Shown here: positions 2,651 through 20,723 of the stretch, one piece after another
Layout: each line of letters opens with the position of its first letter
Position numbering within the stretch: position 1 is the first letter of the stretch
From: a virus
Reading direction: 5' to 3' (one strand)
Length of the DNA: 20,825 bases
IMG/VR virus record: IMGVR_UViG_3300043313_000864
Coordinates: 1 to 20,825 of that record
The notes under the pieces: generated by a model
Databases searched by the model: none
What the model was told of the DNA's origin: nothing
Seen by the model: only the letters and a program-made list of their open reading frames with translations
Translations under genes and position numbers: made by a program

Positions 2651-3676
2651 TCAGACTCTGGAACGCGCGCGCGCGGCGCTAGCGATGGTCTGGGTGGCTT
2701 CCTTCTCACTGAGTCCGATGGACCGGGCAGCGGCCAGCAGCGGCTCCGTGGGCAGGCCCTTCTCATGCGCCCGGGCAGCAGCCCAATAGAGCGAGTGGTT
2801 GCGCTCTCCCTGCCCTGCTGCGGCCACGAACCGGACCAGCCCGTCCAGGGCTCCGCGGTTCTCTCCTGTGGCCACAGCGGCCGGTGTGGGCCGCGTGCCG
2901 TACCTCTCGGGGTCTAGGTAGGCCATCGCGCCGTCCCAATCGAACGTGGCGCCGTAGCGGCCACCCATGGCGAAGTCCCACGAGTAGCTCCCCCATGGGT
3001 GGCCCGGCTCCCGCGCGTCTATCCGGCTGGGCGCGCCCACGATGTACCCACCGCGGCCGCGGAAGTCCAGCCCGGTCTTTGCGCTCGCGTGGTTGCCGCC
3101 GCCGGACGGTGCGAACAGGACGTGTTTGCCGCCCGTGGGCGTGCTCTGGACGGCGAATCCGCCGCTGAGGTACCCCTGAGCCCTGATCTTGTTGAAAGAC
3201 TCCAGCCCGGGCGCATCGCCCTTGACATCCACGTCCAGCGCATCGAACAGTACGCCGCACGCTAGGCCGATATTGAACTCGGGCTGCATGTTCCACCAGG
3301 CGCGGATCGTGCCCAGGTCGGTGGTCGCATCCTTCACGCCCTCAGTGGTGGCCGGGACCTTGCTGCGGCGGCGCAGCGGGTGAACAGGTACGCCCGCGAT
3401 CGCGTACACCATGGCAGCAGCGCCCAGGGTCAGGTCGTTGGCCTCGCGCATGCGTGAGATCCCGATAGTGCGGGCTCGGGCTTGGATCACGTAGTGGCAC
3501 TTCGCGCCGAACGTCCCGCCCGGGCCAGGCTCCTCCTTATGGCAGCGTGGGCAGACGTTCGCGTCAGGGTGCTCCGCGGGGTCGGCGTCTGGGTGGCGCG
3601 GCTCCAGCGGGACGGTGGGGTCCGTTTCCGCGTTCACCATTGCCTGGATTGTGCTGGTCTCTTGATCATTGGTCAC
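2651..3676 (-). CDS. Bifunctional DNA primase/polymerase (prim-pol)
   Basis: From the GTG at 3676 the protein has 341 residues. I chose this start for the AGGAGAGAGG ribosome site just upstream; an in-frame ATG at 3703 is the alternative. A zinc-type motif (VCPRC at 41-45 with C60-H61) precedes the prim-pol fold (PF09250-like): GVPVHPL, KVPATTEGVKDATTD (about 106-120), WW (127-128), NIGLACG, and the metal-binding LDVDVK at 147-152 with acids D148 and D150. Then come STPTGGKHVLF (178-188) and GLDFRGRGGYIVGAPS (202-217). The C-terminal helices (about 278-341) resemble the usual alpha-helical primase tail. It would lay primers and may extend them at the phage origin, together with the RecA-fold helicase directly downstream. 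It overlaps the upstream gene by 11 nt. Confidence 0.88.
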   Translation of the reverse strand: MTNDQETSTIQAMVNAETDPTVPLEPRHPDADPAEHPDANVCPRCHKEEPGPGGTFGAKCHYVIQARARTIGISRMREANDLTLGAAAMVYAIAGVPVHPLRRRSKVPATTEGVKDATTDLGTIRAWWNMQPEFNIGLACGVLFDALDVDVKGDAPGLESFNKIRAQGYLSGGFAVQSTPTGGKHVLFAPSGGGNHASAKTGLDFRGRGGYIVGAPSRIDAREPGHPWGSYSWDFAMGGRYGATFDWDGAMAYLDPERYGTRPTPAAVATGENRGALDGLVRFVAAAGQGERNHSLYWAAARAHEKGLPTEPLLAAARSIGLSEKEATQTIASAARARSRV

Positions 3677-3896
3677 TGTCTGGGGCCTCTCTCCTGATTC
3701 CATCCATGTATGTAATTTCGTACAGCGCATCACCCTGGCGCAGCGTGGGAAACATGGTCTCCGGGAACTTCCAGGCCCGCACCTTGAGCACCGCTGAGGC
3801 AACCGCGGCCTCCACCGAATCGGCCTCCGCTACCTCCACCACAAGCGTCCGCTGGACTGTCAGTGCCACCGTGTAGGGTGCTCCGCTTTCACTCAT
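3666..3896 (-). CDS. Small unknown protein (76 aa) of the early operon
   Basis: I start this protein at the ATG at 3896 (MSESGAPYTVALTVQRTLVV), which follows an AGGCGG ribosome-site-like stretch and overlaps the upstream stop by 8 nt. A longer in-frame start at 3932 would add 12 basic residues inside the previous gene and is less likely. The pattern is a beta strand pair, then an acidic helix (EADSVEAAVASAVLKVRAW), then a short strand (ALYEITYMDG). This is a small alpha/beta fold common among phage early proteins of unknown role. It is tightly packed against the primase start, so co-translation with the replication genes is likely. No function can be assigned. Confidence 0.65.
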   Translation of the reverse strand: MSESGAPYTVALTVQRTLVVEVAEADSVEAAVASAVLKVRAWKFPETMFPTLRQGDALYEITYMDGIRREAPDSDQ

Positions 3897-5062: not shown

Positions 5063-5092
5063 ATTATCAAAGCCCAGCGATCGCTAGGTCAC
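5063..5092 (-). promoter_or_regulatory. Candidate promoter for the early operon
   Basis: On the minus strand GATAAT (5068-5063, 5 of 6 to TATAAT) lies 18 nt after GTGACC (5092-5087, 4 of 6 to TTGACA). The pair sits over the end of the lysin gene and points into the 150-nt gap before the first early gene, giving a leader of roughly 120 nt. The 10-bp palindrome AGCGATCGCT (5076-5085) lies between the boxes and could be an operator. The gap also holds a short hairpin (CCCAGC...GCTGGG, 4958-4977). There is no other convincing promoter here. Confidence 0.4.
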
Positions 5093-6274
5093 TGACGGCG
5101 TGTCGGGTCCCGGTGTGTCGATCTTGAATGACGCACGTACGAGGTTGTGATCACTGGCGTGAGGCTCGTACTCAGGCGTCCCGGTGATCACCAGCGTGCC
5201 CGCGTACGGGGCCACGGCTGGGCTCGTCAGGACGTCATCGATCCAGATGCCCTCGCGGCCGGTGACACCCCACCCGTTGCGGCTGTTCCGGCTGTCTCCG
5301 TCCATCTGGTTATCCGTGAGCCGGTCCCTGAGGTGGCGGTAACCAGCAGCGCCCAGGATCTTCCGGACACCCGTGTTGAATAGCTGGTCCTTCTGGGCGT
5401 CGTTCAGGTCGCCGAAGATCACCACGCGGTCATGCTCAGGCAGGCCGGCAAGGATCGCCACGATCTCCCCGGCCTGAGCCTCGCGCAGCTTGGCCTCGCC
5501 GGGCATGTTGACGGCCAGGTGAGTGGCTACCGCCCAGAAGTCAGCACCAGTGGCGATCGACTGGAGCCGGACGCATGTCAGCGGCCGCGTGGACGGGAAG
5601 CCAGGCAGCGCAGTGCTCTTGAGCTTGAACTCCCGGTGATCAATCGCGACCCACTTGTCAGCCCTCCATATGATCTTGGCCGTTCCCGAGCCCCAGAAAT
5701 TCCAGTTAGGCCCGAGCCCGTGTGTCAGCTCAGTGGCTCGGGCGTCGTTGCACTCCTGGACGCCGAGCACACTGGGCGCTACGTCGTTGATCACTCGCAC
5801 GAGCTGGGGGAGTCGCTTGGACCAGGCCCTGGGGCCCACGTCTACGGGCGTCTTGTGGCGAATGTTGAACGATGCTGACCTGACTGAGGTTTTAGTGTCC
5901 ACGGCGCCTGGGTCCTCTCTTCCGTAGCTGATATGGATATGCCCGGTGTGAGGGTCGGAGCCGTTGTACTGGCGGACGCCCTCAGAGGCCCGCGCGACTG
6001 ACCAGATGCGCCGTCTGGTGATGATGTAGGTGGCGCCCAGACGCTTGGCGTTGGTCTTGAACCACGCCAGAACTTGATCATGGTGCGCGGCGCTGTTGTC
6101 GTACAGCCAGAAGTCTGCCGCGTACCCACCAGACGGCACAGTGTCCTTGCCCGGGTCACTGTGAGCGTGGTGAGGGTAGGTGCCTATCTGGGTGTTGAAT
6201 CGGTGCGCGATCTCCTCATTCGATTTGACCACCCAGCCCGGCCAGGGTCGGTAATTATCGATGTACAGCCCCAT
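5084..6274 (-). CDS. Lysin: VldE-like wall hydrolase fused to EEP nuclease domain
   Basis: The protein has 396 residues. Residues about 30-120 match the ARB_07466/VldE-like peptidase domain found in actinobacterial wall hydrolases: HSD (38-40), GYAADFW (50-56), RRIWSVARASEG (88-99) and DPHTGHIHISYG (108-118), with candidate metal ligands H38, D54 and H112 or H114. After a short linker, residues about 130-386 form an endonuclease/exonuclease/phosphatase (DNase I-like) domain with SFNIR (135-139), GVQEC (171-175), ATHLAV (250-255), FGDLND (287-292) and SDHNLV (374-379), so the usual Asn, Glu, Asp-x-Asn and Asp-His residues are all present. No signal peptide is seen and no wall-binding repeat. 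It directly follows the holin-like gene, which supports release through a holin. The EEP part could degrade DNA or another phosphodiester. The fusion is unusual. Confidence 0.82.
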   Translation of the reverse strand: MGLYIDNYRPWPGWVVKSNEEIAHRFNTQIGTYPHHAHSDPGKDTVPSGGYAADFWLYDNSAAHHDQVLAWFKTNAKRLGATYIITRRRIWSVARASEGVRQYNGSDPHTGHIHISYGREDPGAVDTKTSVRSASFNIRHKTPVDVGPRAWSKRLPQLVRVINDVAPSVLGVQECNDARATELTHGLGPNWNFWGSGTAKIIWRADKWVAIDHREFKLKSTALPGFPSTRPLTCVRLQSIATGADFWAVATHLAVNMPGEAKLREAQAGEIVAILAGLPEHDRVVIFGDLNDAQKDQLFNTGVRKILGAAGYRHLRDRLTDNQMDGDSRNSRNGWGVTGREGIWIDDVLTSPAVAPYAGTLVITGTPEYEPHASDHNLVRASFKIDTPGPDTPSVT

Positions 6275-6276
6275 GA

Positions 6277-6591
6277 TCAGTAACCCTTCTGCTTTGTCTG
6301 CTCGGCCAGGACGCGGGTGACGATCGACGCTATGCGCTCGTCCAACTGGCCATTGGTTTGGGTCTCCACCCGCTCAGTCACTTTCGCGTTATCACCCACG
6401 CGCGACCGGATCGACAGCCAGCCAGCAGCGATCGCCGCGAAGTTCGTTATCCACGCGTAGTCGATCATCGCGCCAGGATCGTGCGGCGCCCACTGCATGC
6501 CCGCCCGGACGAGCACAGCAATGCCGAATATCCACAGGCCAGCCTTGTCAGCGCCCGTGATCTTGAACTGGTCCCGCATATCGTTGCTCAC
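6277..6591 (-). CDS. Holin-like small membrane protein (104 aa)
   Basis: The GTG at 6591 overlaps the upstream stop (GTGA) and follows a GGGAG-type site; a longer ATG start would lie inside the HNH gene. Residues 16-35 (about AGLWIFGIAVLVRAGMQWA) and 43-60 (about YAWITNFAAIAAGWLSI) are two hydrophobic helices. They are followed by a charged, probably cytoplasmic tail (about 61-104) with a short coiled-coil-like stretch (KVTERVETQTNGQLDERI). Two helices with a charged C-terminus, placed immediately before the lysin, fit a holin that opens the membrane for the lysin. There is no sequence family I can name, so the call rests on topology and position. Confidence 0.7.
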   Translation of the reverse strand: MSNDMRDQFKITGADKAGLWIFGIAVLVRAGMQWAPHDPGAMIDYAWITNFAAIAAGWLSIRSRVGDNAKVTERVETQTNGQLDERIASIVTRVLAEQTKQKGY

Positions 6592-6839
6592 CAATGCTCC
6601 CTTGGCTCTGGATCGGATGTTTCGTCTACGTGAGACAGGTTGCAGGGTGCACACGCTGCCCTGACGTTATCTGGGTGATCGGTCCCGCCCTGGGATTTGG
6701 GCACTATGTGCGCGGCCTGGGTTGCGACCGTCGTGCACCGCGGCCCCCTGATCTGGCAGCGGTACTGATCACGGCGCAGCACCAGGAGGCGGACGCCGCG
6801 CCATGCTGCGGTAGAGCCGCCGGCCCACGCCTTGCTCAT
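6588..6839 (-). CDS. HNH endonuclease (83 aa)
   Basis: The short protein carries the complete HNH signature: C28 and C35 of a zinc pair, the catalytic AAHIVPKSQGG (H44), HPDNVRAAC (N58) and CAPCN (C63, C66, N67). HNH proteins of this size in HK97-like phages usually sit beside the terminase and help DNA packaging. Here the gene lies between a tail-fibre gene and the holin, about 12 kb from the terminase in this orientation. If the genome is circular or permuted it still is not adjacent. It could therefore be a packaging nuclease that has moved or a free-standing homing-type nuclease. The start overlaps the previous stop (ATGA) and the end overlaps the holin start. Confidence 0.85.
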   Translation of the reverse strand: MSKAWAGGSTAAWRGVRLLVLRRDQYRCQIRGPRCTTVATQAAHIVPKSQGGTDHPDNVRAACAPCNLSHVDETSDPEPREHW

Positions 6840-16120: not shown

Positions 16121-17428
16121 CTATGTGCCCGGGTCGTAGCTAACGCGACGGATGCCGGGGTTGTCGATGACCTCCACGACGCGGTAGCCCCAGACAGCCA
16201 GCTCAACCGAGCGGACCTGCCACTGGAACTCAAGCCGCTGCGGCGCGCTGGCCGCGGCGTAGATCGCGGCCGGGTCAAACAGGTAGCTGTTCGACGATGC
16301 GTTGCTAGGCGCAGCCGCTGAGGTCACCGGGTAGCCCTCCAGGCCAGCGATGGACAGGCGGGCGAACCGCGGCGACACCGTGCCATTGGCATTGACCGGG
16401 CCGAACATCGGGTAGAGCTTCCGGCCGCTGGTGTCAGTCGCGCGAGCGAACAGACGGTAGAGGTCCTGCTGAAGCGCCAGCGAGGTATAGGAGTTACCGG
16501 TTGCCACGTACTGAAGATCAGCGATCGCGGCCTCGAACGCGGCGGCAACCGGGTAGTCCTGGGCCTGGGTGTAGGTGGCCGGCCAGGTGCCCGCGTTCGT
16601 CGGCAGGGTGATGGTCGCACCCGGAGACTCCGCCTCAAGCTCCGTCCACGCGATGGCCTCTAGAGCCTTGTTGTACTCATAGACCATCTTCTGCCAGATG
16701 AGCGCCGACGCCATAGGACCGCCCTGGTCCCACAGCTCACGAGAGATGCGGACCTTGCCGGACACAGCACCCGGGGTGATCGTCTCGCTGGTCGCCGTGA
16801 ACTGACCCTCAGCGGGCTCAACATCCTCGGTGTGAGCCGCGACCAGGGACGAATGGGCGGACCACTTCGGAACGACCATCGGCGTGATTTCTTCCAGGGT
16901 CTCCTTGCGGATCGCCTCCCACAGCGGGAACACGAACTCACGCTGAGTGACGTAGAGGTCAGGGCGCTGGACGTTCGGATTCAACGCGGCGACGTTGGCC
17001 ACAGGGATGACCGCGAAGCCCTCGCCGGCGCCCGCATCGGTACGTACTGGACCGTCCGGCGCGGAGGTGATGGGAGCGGTAAAAATATGCTCCTGGATGA
17101 ACGACATGGCGCGCTGAGTAGCGGCTGCGTCGTGCTGAGAAGCGGCGCGGAGGTCAGACGCGAAGTCGTGAGTACCGGCCATCAGCACACCACGATCGAA
17201 GCGGTACGGCTCCGGCTCATTGACCTCAAGAGTGACGCCCGGTGCGCCAGTAGCGCCCTCAGCCGGGTTAATCACCTCAGGGCCCTGAGCACCAGCAGGC
17301 GCGGCCGGGTTGGCGGCCAGGTAAGCCTGGAACGCCTGGGCGAACTGCCCCATGTCGAACTGAGGCGCGGGCGTGCAGGCTGCCTGCCCAGCGGTGTGAA
17401 CGTGTCCGCAGACAGCGCACGGTTCCAT
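16121..17428 (-). CDS. Major capsid protein, probable internal translation product
   Basis: This frame is the last part of the giant portal-protease-capsid gene, but it has its own ATG at 17428 with AAGGAG 5 nt upstream, one of the best ribosome sites in the window. The product would be 435 residues. It starts MEPCAVCGHVHTAGQAACTP, a Cys/His cluster resembling a small zinc site, then an Ala/Pro/Gly-rich region (about 22-65) that may serve as the delta or scaffold-like part. The HK97-type capsid fold follows, for instance DLYVTQREFVFPLWEAI, VSGKVRISRELWDQGGP, EYNKALEAIAWTELE, and the end RSVELAVWGYRVVEVIDNPG. Separate initiation would give the many capsid copies a shell needs. This entry is nested within the long fusion. 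Confidence 0.65.
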   Translation of the reverse strand: MEPCAVCGHVHTAGQAACTPAPQFDMGQFAQAFQAYLAANPAAPAGAQGPEVINPAEGATGAPGVTLEVNEPEPYRFDRGVLMAGTHDFASDLRAASQHDAAATQRAMSFIQEHIFTAPITSAPDGPVRTDAGAGEGFAVIPVANVAALNPNVQRPDLYVTQREFVFPLWEAIRKETLEEITPMVVPKWSAHSSLVAAHTEDVEPAEGQFTATSETITPGAVSGKVRISRELWDQGGPMASALIWQKMVYEYNKALEAIAWTELEAESPGATITLPTNAGTWPATYTQAQDYPVAAAFEAAIADLQYVATGNSYTSLALQQDLYRLFARATDTSGRKLYPMFGPVNANGTVSPRFARLSIAGLEGYPVTSAAAPSNASSNSYLFDPAAIYAAASAPQRLEFQWQVRSVELAVWGYRVVEVIDNPGIRRVSYDPGT

Positions 17429-19129
17429 GATTTCTCCTTGGTTGTCAGCCTCAGCCACGACGGCAGAGACACGAGCGGAATCGAAAGCTGGCGACGGGGT
17501 CAGGGAGACCTCGGCCAGGATGTTGCCTTGCCCGGAGTGCCAGACCCCGGAACGTTCCGAGAATTGGGCATCGTCCAGGAGACCGATAGACAAGCCGTCA
17601 TAGACGCCATCCTCAGCCAGCACCAGGGCGCGGTCACCCTCTGGAGTGCGGGCGATCTTGAACGTCACCCTGAGACCGTCGGGCCCATCCTCAAACGTCA
17701 CGCCGCGGCCCACGGCCTGCGAGCGGTCATGCTGGATCAGGAGCTTCACGCGGCTGGGCTCGGCCCAGGTGAGCGACCCCTGAGAGAACTGGTACGTGCG
17801 GCCGTTGCGGCGGGCGGTCACACCGTACGGGACGGCCAGGCCCGTGATGGTCCGGGCCGCTTGGTCAACCGCAAATATGTTGCGCGATTCTGGCGTTTCA
17901 AAGCCAATAAGCAGTGAGCCGGCGTCAAAGTTGTTGCGCGAGCTCGGGGCCTCAGCCGCAACATCATTGCTTGACTCTTGATCTTGACCAGCAGGGAGCG
18001 CCGGGCGCGGCATCGCGAACATCGGCCGCGGCAGGCCCTCGCGCTCGGCCACAGCGTTGCGGTCATAGATACCCATTGCGATCCCCAATTGATAGACCTT
18101 GAAGCGGCTTAGATCGTCCGCCCTCAGGAAGCCGTTGAAGTCCGCGAGGATGCGATAGCCGCGCGGCGTGACATCGGGCATGCTGAGCCGCTCCTGGATC
18201 GCGGACACGTACATGCCGATTGATTCATTGATCTTGGAAATGCGCCGGTCCTGGCTGTTCTGGTAGGTCCGGCTAGTGGTGCTGACGCCCAGGTCCTCAG
18301 GGTCGATACCCAGCACACGCCCGATTTCCACCACGGCGGCCGAGCGGGCAGCGTCAAGCTGGAGTTTCTCCGGGTCCCACTGGAGCGTCTTGTAGTCCAG
18401 GGCACCCGGGACATAGGCGTCCGCGCGGGTCTGGCGGGCCTTAGTCCAATCGTCCAGGAACTCAGGAATGTCAGCCTCATCCGGGTCCGCTTCAGGCATG
18501 GGCGTGAAATAACCCTGTGGGAGCGGGCTGTCCGCGTAGCGATCGGCGGCCGCGGAGAGCTTCAGATAGGTGCGGATCGCGCGGGCGCCAGCGTCCAAGA
18601 TGCCATCGGTGGGCGAGTCGAACTGGATGTAATCCCTGGGCGGGACCTTGACCTCATTCCCGTTGGGCATATTCACGTGCAGGTAGCCCTCAGCGTCCAC
18701 CTGAGAGCCCGGGTCAACGCGCCACACATAGGCCGGGTAATTCCTGTAATCCCGCTCGCGGGTCCACCAGTAGGCGATCCCCTCGAACAGGAGATCCTCC
18801 ACCAGGCGCGTCATGGTGATGGATCGGGCGCGGTTCCGCTCGGGCTGGGTGAGCAGCGAGCTAACGTGCTCCACGTTCTCCGTATCCACGAGGCGGAAGG
18901 GAATCCCGCCCACCTCGCCAGCTATCAGGTCACGGCCGCGTTTGACAGCCGGGACCTGGATAGCCTCACGGCGCGGCACTTTTGGAGCCGGGCCCGTGGT
19001 CGTTTGGTAGGACTCCAGGCCAAATACCTGAGCAGGGATCGAGCCCGCGTCGATCTCAAACCGGGGGGCGGTCGGAGAGTCGGGACGTTCGAAGCCGAGC
19101 CACTCAGCTAACCGCCACCAGAACGACAC
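16121..19129 (-). CDS. Portal-protease-major capsid fusion polyprotein
   Basis: I start at GTG 19129 (VSFWWRLAEWLGFE), giving 1002 residues; a TTG 60 nt upstream inside the terminase gene would add 20. Residues below follow the GTG start. About 1-385 is an HK97-type portal (VKRGRDLIAGEVGGIPFRLV near 62-81, VVEIGRVLGIDPEDLG near 266-281, YQNSQDRRISKINE near 289-302). About 400-565 is a prohead protease of the HK97/S78 type: LIQHDRSQAVGRG (His467), GLSIG (Ser514) and EVSLTPSPAF (Glu540). About 568-1002 is the major capsid part. No stop or frame change interrupts these parts in the sequence given. A strong internal start precedes the capsid. The protease presumably cleaves the polyprotein during maturation. 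Confidence 0.85.
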   Translation of the reverse strand: MSFWWRLAEWLGFERPDSPTAPRFEIDAGSIPAQVFGLESYQTTTGPAPKVPRREAIQVPAVKRGRDLIAGEVGGIPFRLVDTENVEHVSSLLTQPERNRARSITMTRLVEDLLFEGIAYWWTRERDYRNYPAYVWRVDPGSQVDAEGYLHVNMPNGNEVKVPPRDYIQFDSPTDGILDAGARAIRTYLKLSAAADRYADSPLPQGYFTPMPEADPDEADIPEFLDDWTKARQTRADAYVPGALDYKTLQWDPEKLQLDAARSAAVVEIGRVLGIDPEDLGVSTTSRTYQNSQDRRISKINESIGMYVSAIQERLSMPDVTPRGYRILADFNGFLRADDLSRFKVYQLGIAMGIYDRNAVAEREGLPRPMFAMPRPALPAGQDQESSNDVAAEAPSSRNNFDAGSLLIGFETPESRNIFAVDQAARTITGLAVPYGVTARRNGRTYQFSQGSLTWAEPSRVKLLIQHDRSQAVGRGVTFEDGPDGLRVTFKIARTPEGDRALVLAEDGVYDGLSIGLLDDAQFSERSGVWHSGQGNILAEVSLTPSPAFDSARVSAVVAEADNQGEIMEPCAVCGHVHTAGQAACTPAPQFDMGQFAQAFQAYLAANPAAPAGAQGPEVINPAEGATGAPGVTLEVNEPEPYRFDRGVLMAGTHDFASDLRAASQHDAAATQRAMSFIQEHIFTAPITSAPDGPVRTDAGAGEGFAVIPVANVAALNPNVQRPDLYVTQREFVFPLWEAIRKETLEEITPMVVPKWSAHSSLVAAHTEDVEPAEGQFTATSETITPGAVSGKVRISRELWDQGGPMASALIWQKMVYEYNKALEAIAWTELEAESPGATITLPTNAGTWPATYTQAQDYPVAAAFEAAIADLQYVATGNSYTSLALQQDLYRLFARATDTSGRKLYPMFGPVNANGTVSPRFARLSIAGLEGYPVTSAAAPSNASSNSYLFDPAAIYAAASAPQRLEFQWQVRSVELAVWGYRVVEVIDNPGIRRVSYDPGT
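17426..17439 (-). promoter_or_regulatory. Strong internal ribosome binding site and start for the capsid
   Basis: On the minus strand AAGGAG (17439-17434) lies 5 nt before ATG (17428-17426), within the fusion gene at the border of the protease and capsid segments. Six consecutive bases match the 16S anti-Shine-Dalgarno and the spacing is near ideal. No comparable site is seen at the portal-protease border. It decides the nested capsid start and suggests that the capsid is made in excess of the fusion. Confidence 0.7.
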
Positions 19130-19169
19130 GCGCCAAACAGTAGCGTGCTCCCCCCACAATGATGTTGCG

Positions 19170-20723
19170 CTACGCGCCGCGCGACACAACTAATTTGAGC
19201 CGTTGCGTCGGACGCGCAACTCTCGCGAGGTGGACAGCACCAGCAGCCGCATAGGCCGCGTCCGCGTTTCCGAACTTCCGGCTGAAGCGCCAGCCGTCTC
19301 CCATGGGCAGGCGATGCGAGCCCAGAACGTGCGCGTTGAGGAGCGGGTCATTGCCGTGGATGATCATCCTTGAGCGGACCTGTTCCGCCAGGCCCTGACA
19401 CACGGCCGGGATCTCAGCCGATTTCAGCTCCACTTTCGCGGCCTTGCCTACGCTCTTAGCGGTCCACTGGCCAGGCGCGCGCATCTGGTGGAGGTCAGCC
19501 ATCACCGCGGCCGCTGGGCCACCAGGAAACCACCCCAGCGTCTTGGGCTGGTATTGCGCTATGAGACCAGGAAGATCAGCAACCATGCGAGACAGGTCGG
19601 ACCAGGCGCCCACGACGCCCACCCGAACACGGCCAGAATCAGTGACGCTGGCGGCGGCAAGGGTGGCGTGCTCACCCTCCGGGGCGACGTCGAGACAGAA
19701 GAACTTGCGATCTGCCTCCATCACCCGGGAGCCAGCAGGATCGCCGCACGCGTTCCACGCCTGAGCCGAGATCGGGCTATCGAGCGACTCGACCGACTGA
19801 CAGAGGATCTCCGTCCGGAAGACAGACGGGGGATCGGTGCCCATGCTGGTGCGGATCGCCTCCGCGCTAACCCCATAACCGAGCCCGGGGCACGCCTGGG
19901 CAATCTGGCCCCAGTCATCCAGCTCACAACCGTCATAGCCAGACCACTCCATGAGCCCGATTGACGGGTCAAGCCCGGCCAGCGCGGACTCCCGGAGCTG
20001 GTTAAGGACCACGCTCGTGGCGTCGCCAGCGTTCGAGATCGCGACAATCAGCCCATTAGCCTGGGCGATCGTGGTCTTAGACAGCGCACTCCACGCCTGC
20101 CAGTCCTTCTGCTCGCGGATCTCGTCCAAGATCAGCAGATTCACGGACAGGCCGCGGCCAGCGCCCTGGCGGGTAGCGGTCAGCCGATAACGGGAGCCGT
20201 TGACGAGCTTCAGGCTGGTCTCCGTGTTGCCGCGCTTCACGGCCGCGACCTGCTTTGCGATCTTGTAATTCGTCTCCGCGATATCGACCGCGCCGGACCA
20301 GGCCTCCCGCGCGATGTCCATCGATTGAGCCGCACCCAGCACCATGGCGCCCGGGCGTTTTGTCATTAGCCACAGCGCCACCACCTTGAGCAGCGTGGTC
20401 TTGCCGGACTGGCGGCCCACCAAAGTGAGCACCGTGCGGAAGCGATAGACGCGCGTCCGATCAACCACCCCGGCGCCCGGGTCCGCGTACTCGAACGCGT
20501 GCATGAGCCACCACTTCTGCCATGGGTATAGCTCGATGCCTAGCGTGTGCTTCGCAAAGCGGATGATCTCCGGGCCAGCAGTCGTGGCAGAGGTGAGCGG
20601 GCGCAGCTCCGGGGTGTAGAGCCTGGGCTCCGTGAGGCCCTTGATTCCATCGGGAGCCGGGGCGTGCGGGCTGGCGTCGAATAGGACCTCCTGGTCCGGC
20701 ATCGAGCCAGCTTGCAACGTCAT
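19170..20723 (-). CDS. terL: Terminase large subunit
   Basis: The 517-residue protein has a complete ATPase: Walker A VGRQSGKTT (102-110), Walker B LLILDE (196-201) and the coupling motif AISNAGD (228-234). The nuclease half follows, with FFCLDVAPEG (341-350, D345) as the first catalytic acid and KFGNADAAYAAAGA (483-496, D488) as the last. It packages phage DNA into the prohead through the portal and cuts it. The length is typical. The ATG at 20723 has GAGGTGG about 13 nt upstream; an in-frame ATG at codon 8 is the alternative. The end lies 40 nt before the GTG start of the portal fusion. A small terminase subunit was not clearly found; only the end of a partial gene precedes it. Confidence 0.95.
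   Translation of the reverse strand: MTLQAGSMPDQEVLFDASPHAPAPDGIKGLTEPRLYTPELRPLTSATTAGPEIIRFAKHTLGIELYPWQKWWLMHAFEYADPGAGVVDRTRVYRFRTVLTLVGRQSGKTTLLKVVALWLMTKRPGAMVLGAAQSMDIAREAWSGAVDIAETNYKIAKQVAAVKRGNTETSLKLVNGSRYRLTATRQGAGRGLSVNLLILDEIREQKDWQAWSALSKTTIAQANGLIVAISNAGDATSVVLNQLRESALAGLDPSIGLMEWSGYDGCELDDWGQIAQACPGLGYGVSAEAIRTSMGTDPPSVFRTEILCQSVESLDSPISAQAWNACGDPAGSRVMEADRKFFCLDVAPEGEHATLAAASVTDSGRVRVGVVGAWSDLSRMVADLPGLIAQYQPKTLGWFPGGPAAAVMADLHQMRAPGQWTAKSVGKAAKVELKSAEIPAVCQGLAEQVRSRMIIHGNDPLLNAHVLGSHRLPMGDGWRFSRKFGNADAAYAAAGAVHLARVARPTQRLKLVVSRGA

Follow-up and report, generated by a model that had tools for sequence, protein, structure and literature searches.

A predicted phage endolysin that joins a VldE-like domain to an exonuclease-endonuclease-phosphatase domain

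Endolysins are normally viewed as enzymes that cut peptidoglycan and carry parts that bind the wall. About half of those from phages of Gram-positive hosts are predicted to use internal starts, and several of these starts have been confirmed (PMC9430671). Among bacterial wall enzymes, the L,D-endopeptidase VldE binds its catalytic zinc through H301, D308 and H375; H373 completes the HxH motif, and R294 holds the catalytic water (PMC11667670). Wall hydrolases of the VirB1 type, which belong to the T4SSs of monoderm bacteria, combine SLT, CHAP, M23 and LysM domains (PMC12102498).

The DNA analysed here, hereafter the window, is a stretch of 20,825 nt from a soil phage, making up positions 1 to 20,825 of IMG/VR virus record IMGVR_UViG_3300043313_000864. 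An initial annotation, made from the letters alone, had described a lysin in which a wall hydrolase-like domain is followed by an exonuclease-endonuclease-phosphatase (EEP) domain. Its coordinates were borne out, and the list of open reading frames places the gene on the minus strand, with the ATG at 6274 and the stop codon at 5086-5084 (Table 1). The fusion is present in the window and in six other IMG/VR contigs, which together form one clade of seven. These other contigs come from several metagenomes; five of them (L002-L006) keep the protein at full length with 72-96% identity, and the sixth (L007) has a truncated homologue. Values of dN/dS were 0.07-0.19 in the first domain and 0.10-0.38 in the EEP domain, so that both halves are under purifying selection. 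Conservation across metagenomes and low dN/dS rule out a chimera, an assembly error or a frameshift between two genes, the last being one of the two outcomes that the initial annotation had named as fatal to its proposal. The fusion is thus real, conserved and correctly described at the outset.

Table 1. Coordinates of the lysin gene, its parts and neighbours in the window, and of EEP-bearing conjugation proteins on other contigs
Feature	Coordinates	Strand	Basis or remark
Two-domain lysin gene	5084-6274	minus	ORF, 396 aa; homologues L002-L007
N-terminal VldE/ARB_07466-like (LAS, clan MD) domain, residues 1-124	5903-6274	minus	PHROG 32486, alignments, VldE structures
C-terminal EEP domain, residues 128-386	5117-5893	minus	PF03372, fold, invariant catalytic residues
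Candidate internal start GTG (V125), domain boundary	5900-5902	minus	EEP-only product of ~272 aa
Shine-Dalgarno-like stretch GGAAGAGAGGAC	5912-5923	minus	upstream of internal start
Holin-like membrane protein gene	6277-6654	minus	ORF; weak hydrophobic segment
HNH endonuclease gene	6588-6839	minus	upstream of holin-like gene; database matches
Conjugation protein L153	8769-11927		membrane segment - EEP - SLT-like part - EEP - VldE - M23
Conjugation protein L170	4198-6603		SLT-like - VldE - M23 - EEP
Conjugation protein L171	2912-4711		VldE - M23 - EEP
Conjugation protein L165	5770-8529		wall-hydrolase protein with EEP domains
Conjugation protein L166	5854-8520		wall-hydrolase protein with EEP domains

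Gene order in the window is tail, HNH, holin-like, lysin. The holin-like gene ends 2 bases ahead of the lysin ATG, which has an AGAAGGG-type ribosome site of its own. Read at its greatest length, the holin-like ORF overlaps the HNH gene; it probably starts at an internal ATG. In the lysin homologues a holin-like gene likewise lies directly upstream; in L004 and L005 it is a different gene at the same distance, and its product in L005 is a clear two-TM protein. No signal peptide was found in the lysin protein, and no second lysin within the window, though the window may not cover the whole genome. The first domain was also retrieved in 74 other phage loci, and 65 of these genes adjoin a short membrane-protein ORF by a simple hydropathy test that had no chance control. 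One of the relatives, the lysin of Arthrobacter phage 1191A, is followed by an annotated holin. The holin neighbour, the membrane ORFs beside first-domain relatives, the 1191A lysin and the lack of another lysin candidate in the window argue strongly that the protein serves a small actinophage-like siphovirus as its endolysin, in agreement with the lysis role first proposed for it. That it would instead be a virion-associated tail enzyme used for entry is highly improbable: the gene does come directly after the tail genes, but the holin-like gene stands immediately upstream in all homologues, and first-domain relatives adjoin holins.

The large terminase matches Arthrobacter phages. A single ORF of 1022 aa (16121-19189, minus) contains portal, prohead protease and major capsid parts (Pfam Phage_portal, Peptidase_S78 and Phage_capsid_4), and this head polyprotein matches small-genome phages of Arthrobacter, Gordonia and Curtobacterium. 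Elsewhere on the minus strand, a Prim-Pol primase/polymerase gene adjoins an AAA_25 ATPase gene (2651-3802 and 1491-2639), and the ORF at 540-1271 encodes a TM segment with two Lipoprotein_Ltp repeats (PF07553, E 2e-37); some members of this family are superinfection-exclusion lipoproteins.

Pfam gave no match for the first half of the lysin. PHROG 32486, of unknown function, matched residues 30-117 (E 5.9e-7), and a sequence profile of the domain retrieved VldE (E 2.9e-7). The N-domain was unresolved in a first structure model built from six rows; an AlphaFold model built from 36 phage-derived sequences resolved it at the expense of the EEP part, with pLDDT around 90 over residues 60-100 and confident values across 60-120. 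Residues 8-119 of this model align with the pneumococcal VldE crystal structure 9flm at Z 10.1 (103 of 114 residues, rmsd 2.7 A, VIA-align), and the VldE structures 9flm, 9fln and 9flh match it at Z 9-10. Assignment of this half to the VldE/ARB_07466 family, already made from the letters, was therefore correct. Secreted wall proteins of actinobacteria contain the same domain together with SLH, PG-binding or M23 partners, which were recognised by eye.

Inspection of the zinc site revealed a change that the initial annotation had not foreseen. D54 and H112-x-H114 are invariant across the 36 aligned sequences, and H109 is likewise listed as invariant. The equivalent of VldE H301, seven residues before the Asp, is K43 in the window, L002 and L003, so that the first zinc His is absent, and the equivalent of R294 is P34 in the same three. 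The sisters L004-L006 keep H43, shifted by two residues, and R34. The window lineage retains the nearby H35, H36 and H38, among which only H36 is invariant. Since K43 and P34 replace the zinc His and the Arg, the domain is called VldE-like here and not a proven active VldE peptidase; judged from its residues, peptidase activity in the window lineage is plausible, not secure. The domain might even have lost its peptidase in this lineage and serve as a wall-binding anchor, leaving EEP as the sole enzyme. Such a role would fit the intact EEP active site and the loss of two residues still present in L004-L006, the zinc-ligand His and the Arg that frames the site (H301 and R294 in VldE, PMC11667670); yet D54, H109, H112 and H114 are still invariant, a zinc ligand could come from H35, H36 or H38, and the domain has a lower dN/dS than its EEP partner. 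We consider it improbable that the domain is an anchor only.

For the second half, PF03372 (Exo_endo_phos) covers residues 134-376 over its whole profile (1-225 of 225) with 31.5 bits and E 1.9e-7, the curated cut-off being 24.5 bits. Profile searches thus place each half in the family first named for it. All the EEP motifs reported at the outset are present, SFN at 135-137, QE at 173-174, GDLND at 288-292 and SDH at 374-376, and N137, E174, H252, D289, N291, D346/D347, D375 and H376 are invariant in six homologues. Given these catalytic residues and the purifying selection, the EEP domain is predicted to be active, and the view that one lysin joins two enzyme-type domains is supported.

Foldseek placed the EEP model, which is of modest confidence (pLDDT 56 overall), among EEP enzymes, with 3mpr and 3g6s first (E 3e-14 to 3mpr). 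A phage-only profile run against solved structures gave 3g6s (1.4e-8), 3mpr (2.1e-5), 4c1r (8.5e-5) and then TDP2 (1.3e-3), with DNase I, ExoIII and sphingomyelinase all absent at E <= 10. After two secreted actinobacterial homologues were added to the profile, 3g6s, 3mpr and 4c1r led by far and sphingomyelinase was marginal. By sequence, then, the nearest solved EEP structures are those of the BVU_0621/BT3783 group, not DNases or sphingomyelinases; structure scores do not discriminate the subfamilies, Z scores lying within 1-2 of each other. In alignments, all phage homologues have GSGT where the BVU_0621 branch has a GE-containing insertion, and the phage clade lacks the acidic residue found ahead of the A-I-F-Y strand in BVU_0621 and the secreted relatives. 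Cellular EEP relatives are exported, with Tat-like or other signals, and one of them carries a fused type I phosphodiesterase. Exported proteins of ~620 aa with an EEP and a type I phosphodiesterase-like half were seen at L167:5690-7561, L168:6986-8872 and L169:6268-8130, each near a second exported EEP gene (~360-420 aa).

These matches bear on a possible lipid target. The EEP domain could act on a membrane or lipid-linked phosphoester (a phospholipid, an undecaprenyl-linked precursor or a phosphoinositide) and so disrupt the membrane or wall synthesis; the EEP family includes sphingomyelinases and inositol phosphatases, and the structures that the model matches best include sphingomyelinases (8j2f, Z 11.4). 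But such Z scores hardly differ across all EEP enzymes, sphingomyelinase reached only a marginal score once bacterial sequences were added, and sphingomyelin is generally absent from actinobacteria. We consider a lipid target quite unlikely, and the sphingomyelinase activity listed in the initial annotation, with no phage-only profile match at E <= 10, is unsupported by sequence.

The distribution of the architecture was then surveyed. The fusion was absent from 50,697 phage records (INPHARED) at tblastn sensitivity. The only other carriers found are the six IMG/VR contigs, and the EEP half is missing from every one of the 74 further phage lysins that have the first domain. An EEP match in phage Frankenweenie (tblastn) was rejected as chance, being on the opposite strand with E 1. 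DNA-pattern scans for the architecture returned, from viral contigs, the known clade and two chance matches and, from genome contigs, 11 matches without a significant relative of either domain. Viral contigs scanned with an EEP-only profile gave the same clade alone, and with a T4SS-type EEP profile gave nothing. About 1,180 actinobacterial genome draws, some of which repeat a genome, contained no copy of the phage fusion; T4SS proteins surfaced instead. NCBIfam and PADLOC gave no match, and a comparison of domain net charge was uninformative. Gp5 of Streptomyces phage Yosif (L065:1675-2373, hypothetical) is an EEP-fold enzyme that adjoins HNH and terminase genes, not a lysis module, and was set aside. 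In BFVD, an EEP-like match lies in a tail fibre of Citrobacter phage CR8. In the literature searched, neither lysins nor T4SS wall hydrolases were described with an EEP domain, which does not by itself prove that such a description is lacking.

The T4SS proteins of actinobacteria, with one or two EEP domains each, show at least four layouts in which EEP accompanies wall hydrolases of the VldE, M23, SLT or CHAP type (Table 1; in L153 and L170 the SLT-like part was recognised by eye, Pfam making no call). Plasmids pTC1 (AAur_pTC10035) and pNOCA01 have the order EEP - EEP - SLT - CHAP, the CHAP match being below the Pfam cut-off. L153 lies within a transfer operon that also has TrbL/VirB6 and TraG genes, and the plasmid copies lie beside T4SS genes; these conjugation proteins are the counterparts of VirB1-type hydrolases in monoderm T4SSs. 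In trees of both domains the phage sequences fall into clades of their own, without close grouping with T4SS domains, so the pairing of EEP with wall hydrolases probably arose more than once. Descent of the phage fusion from a T4SS protein is unsupported by either tree, within the limits set by long branches.

The same proteins bear on whether the EEP domain would be a DNase that cuts spilled host DNA at lysis, which would make the lysate less viscous or destroy DNA of the host or of rivals. The fold includes DNase I, ExoIII and TDP2, the models match such structures, and all nuclease-type catalytic residues are present. However, none of the solved structures closest in sequence is a DNase, and the phage EEP has no acidic residue at the position beside the first catalytic strand. 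Furthermore, an active enzyme lacking a signal peptide would share the cytoplasm with replicating phage DNA before lysis, and an EEP beside the conjugation DNA channel would be harmful unless single strands were spared. A DNA target fits less well because a DNase in either place would harm its own bearer, and we regard it as unlikely.

A wall target would best explain the EEP domain, since its fusion to wall hydrolases recurs in machines built to breach the envelope. It would also suit the nearest solved EEPs, BVU_0621 and the BT3783-type glycan phosphatase, and the export of the cellular relatives. The reading that we favour, with a probability of roughly 0.48 for the whole mechanism, is that of a lysin with two functions, the EEP domain acting on a wall glycopolymer. 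The protein would fold in the cytoplasm and, once the holin opens the membrane, be released to the wall. The first domain would cleave peptidoglycan cross-links or, in the window lineage, perhaps only bind them, while EEP would hydrolyse phosphoester or phosphodiester bonds of a teichoic-acid- or glycosyl-phosphate-type glycopolymer, so that the wall comes apart. Among the functions offered at the outset, cutting of wall-polymer phosphoesters thus fits best, given the conjugation proteins, and thinning or destruction of DNA fits less well; the two-domain lysin and its lysis context were supported, and sphingomyelinase found no backing in sequence. Against the favoured reading, association does not fix a substrate, and the fusion appears limited to one phage clade. 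The residues lost before the A-I-F-Y strand and from the window's VldE site (first zinc His and Arg) would also weigh against it.

An internal start, which the initial annotation had not foreseen, may also yield the EEP domain on its own. Each of the five distinct homologues has a start codon at the equivalent boundary site, ATG in L006 and GTG in the other four, and each time a GAGG-type site precedes it. The mean SD energy there is -7.4 kcal/mol, versus -3.9 for the next best conserved internal site, and in the window, L002 and L006 the boundary SD is stronger than that of the gene's own start. When codons were shuffled synonymously with the amino acids fixed, 105 of 2000 shuffles did as well, nearly all at the boundary site (p ~0.05); with the protein sequence fixed, the internal start is thus only marginally above chance, which also counts against the favoured reading. 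The site is suggestive of a start that would yield the whole EEP domain.

If EEP domains do act in this way, their presence in a lysin and in conjugation hydrolases would mark wall glycopolymers (or DNA) as a second barrier in actinobacteria, one that both phages and plasmids would have to remove, and could supply enzymes against polymers of the wall teichoic-acid type. A broader proposal, which we regard as tentative and rather doubtful, is that EEP domains are an unrecognised accessory of actinobacterial wall-breaching machines, which would cut wall glycopolymer phosphoesters so that peptidoglycan hydrolases can act, and which phage lysins and conjugation systems would have adopted independently, the phage making a two-enzyme chain and free EEP.

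The VldE-EEP protein is a variant within a known class, the endolysins. Arthrobacter phage Mariposa (Decurrovirus) has the order terminase, portal, protease-capsid, tail, two separate endolysin genes and holin; after its tail genes the window has the HNH, holin-like and VldE-EEP genes, and its portal, separate from the protease-capsid fusion in Mariposa, is joined to the other two. The 1191A lysin, of the same first-domain family, ends in PG_binding_1 where the window lysin has EEP, which supports the statement that EEP sits where a wall-binding domain was expected. The lysin of Glutamicibacter phage Montesquieu shares the first-domain family beside a holin, and its C-terminus is unassigned and without EEP. 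Pneumococcal VldE (Spr1875) has in common with the window protein the fold of residues 8-119, the HxH motif and the zinc-ligand Asp, and differs in the residues at K43/P34, in its LysM and in having no fused EEP. BVU_0621 (3g6s), 3mpr and the BT3783 mannosyl-6-phosphatase (4c1r) share W-x-x-R and the catalytic motifs with the phage EEP, which is ~20% identical to them and lacks the GxGRxxGxxxGE insertion. Endolysins made as two polypeptides from single genes (PMC9430671; mycobacteriophage Ms6 LysA, PMC3111421) use an inter-domain start, as the candidate here would; the second polypeptide would in this case be an enzyme domain. Finally, the T4SS proteins of Nocardioides/Pimelobacter plasmids and their integrated copies, of pTC1 and of pNOCA01 join EEP to wall hydrolases as the phage lysin does, whereas they are membrane-anchored, ~600-1050 aa long, in some cases with two EEPs, and encoded in a conjugation operon. 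Beyond the initial annotation, the analysis adds that actinobacterial conjugation proteins, too, combine EEP with wall hydrolases.
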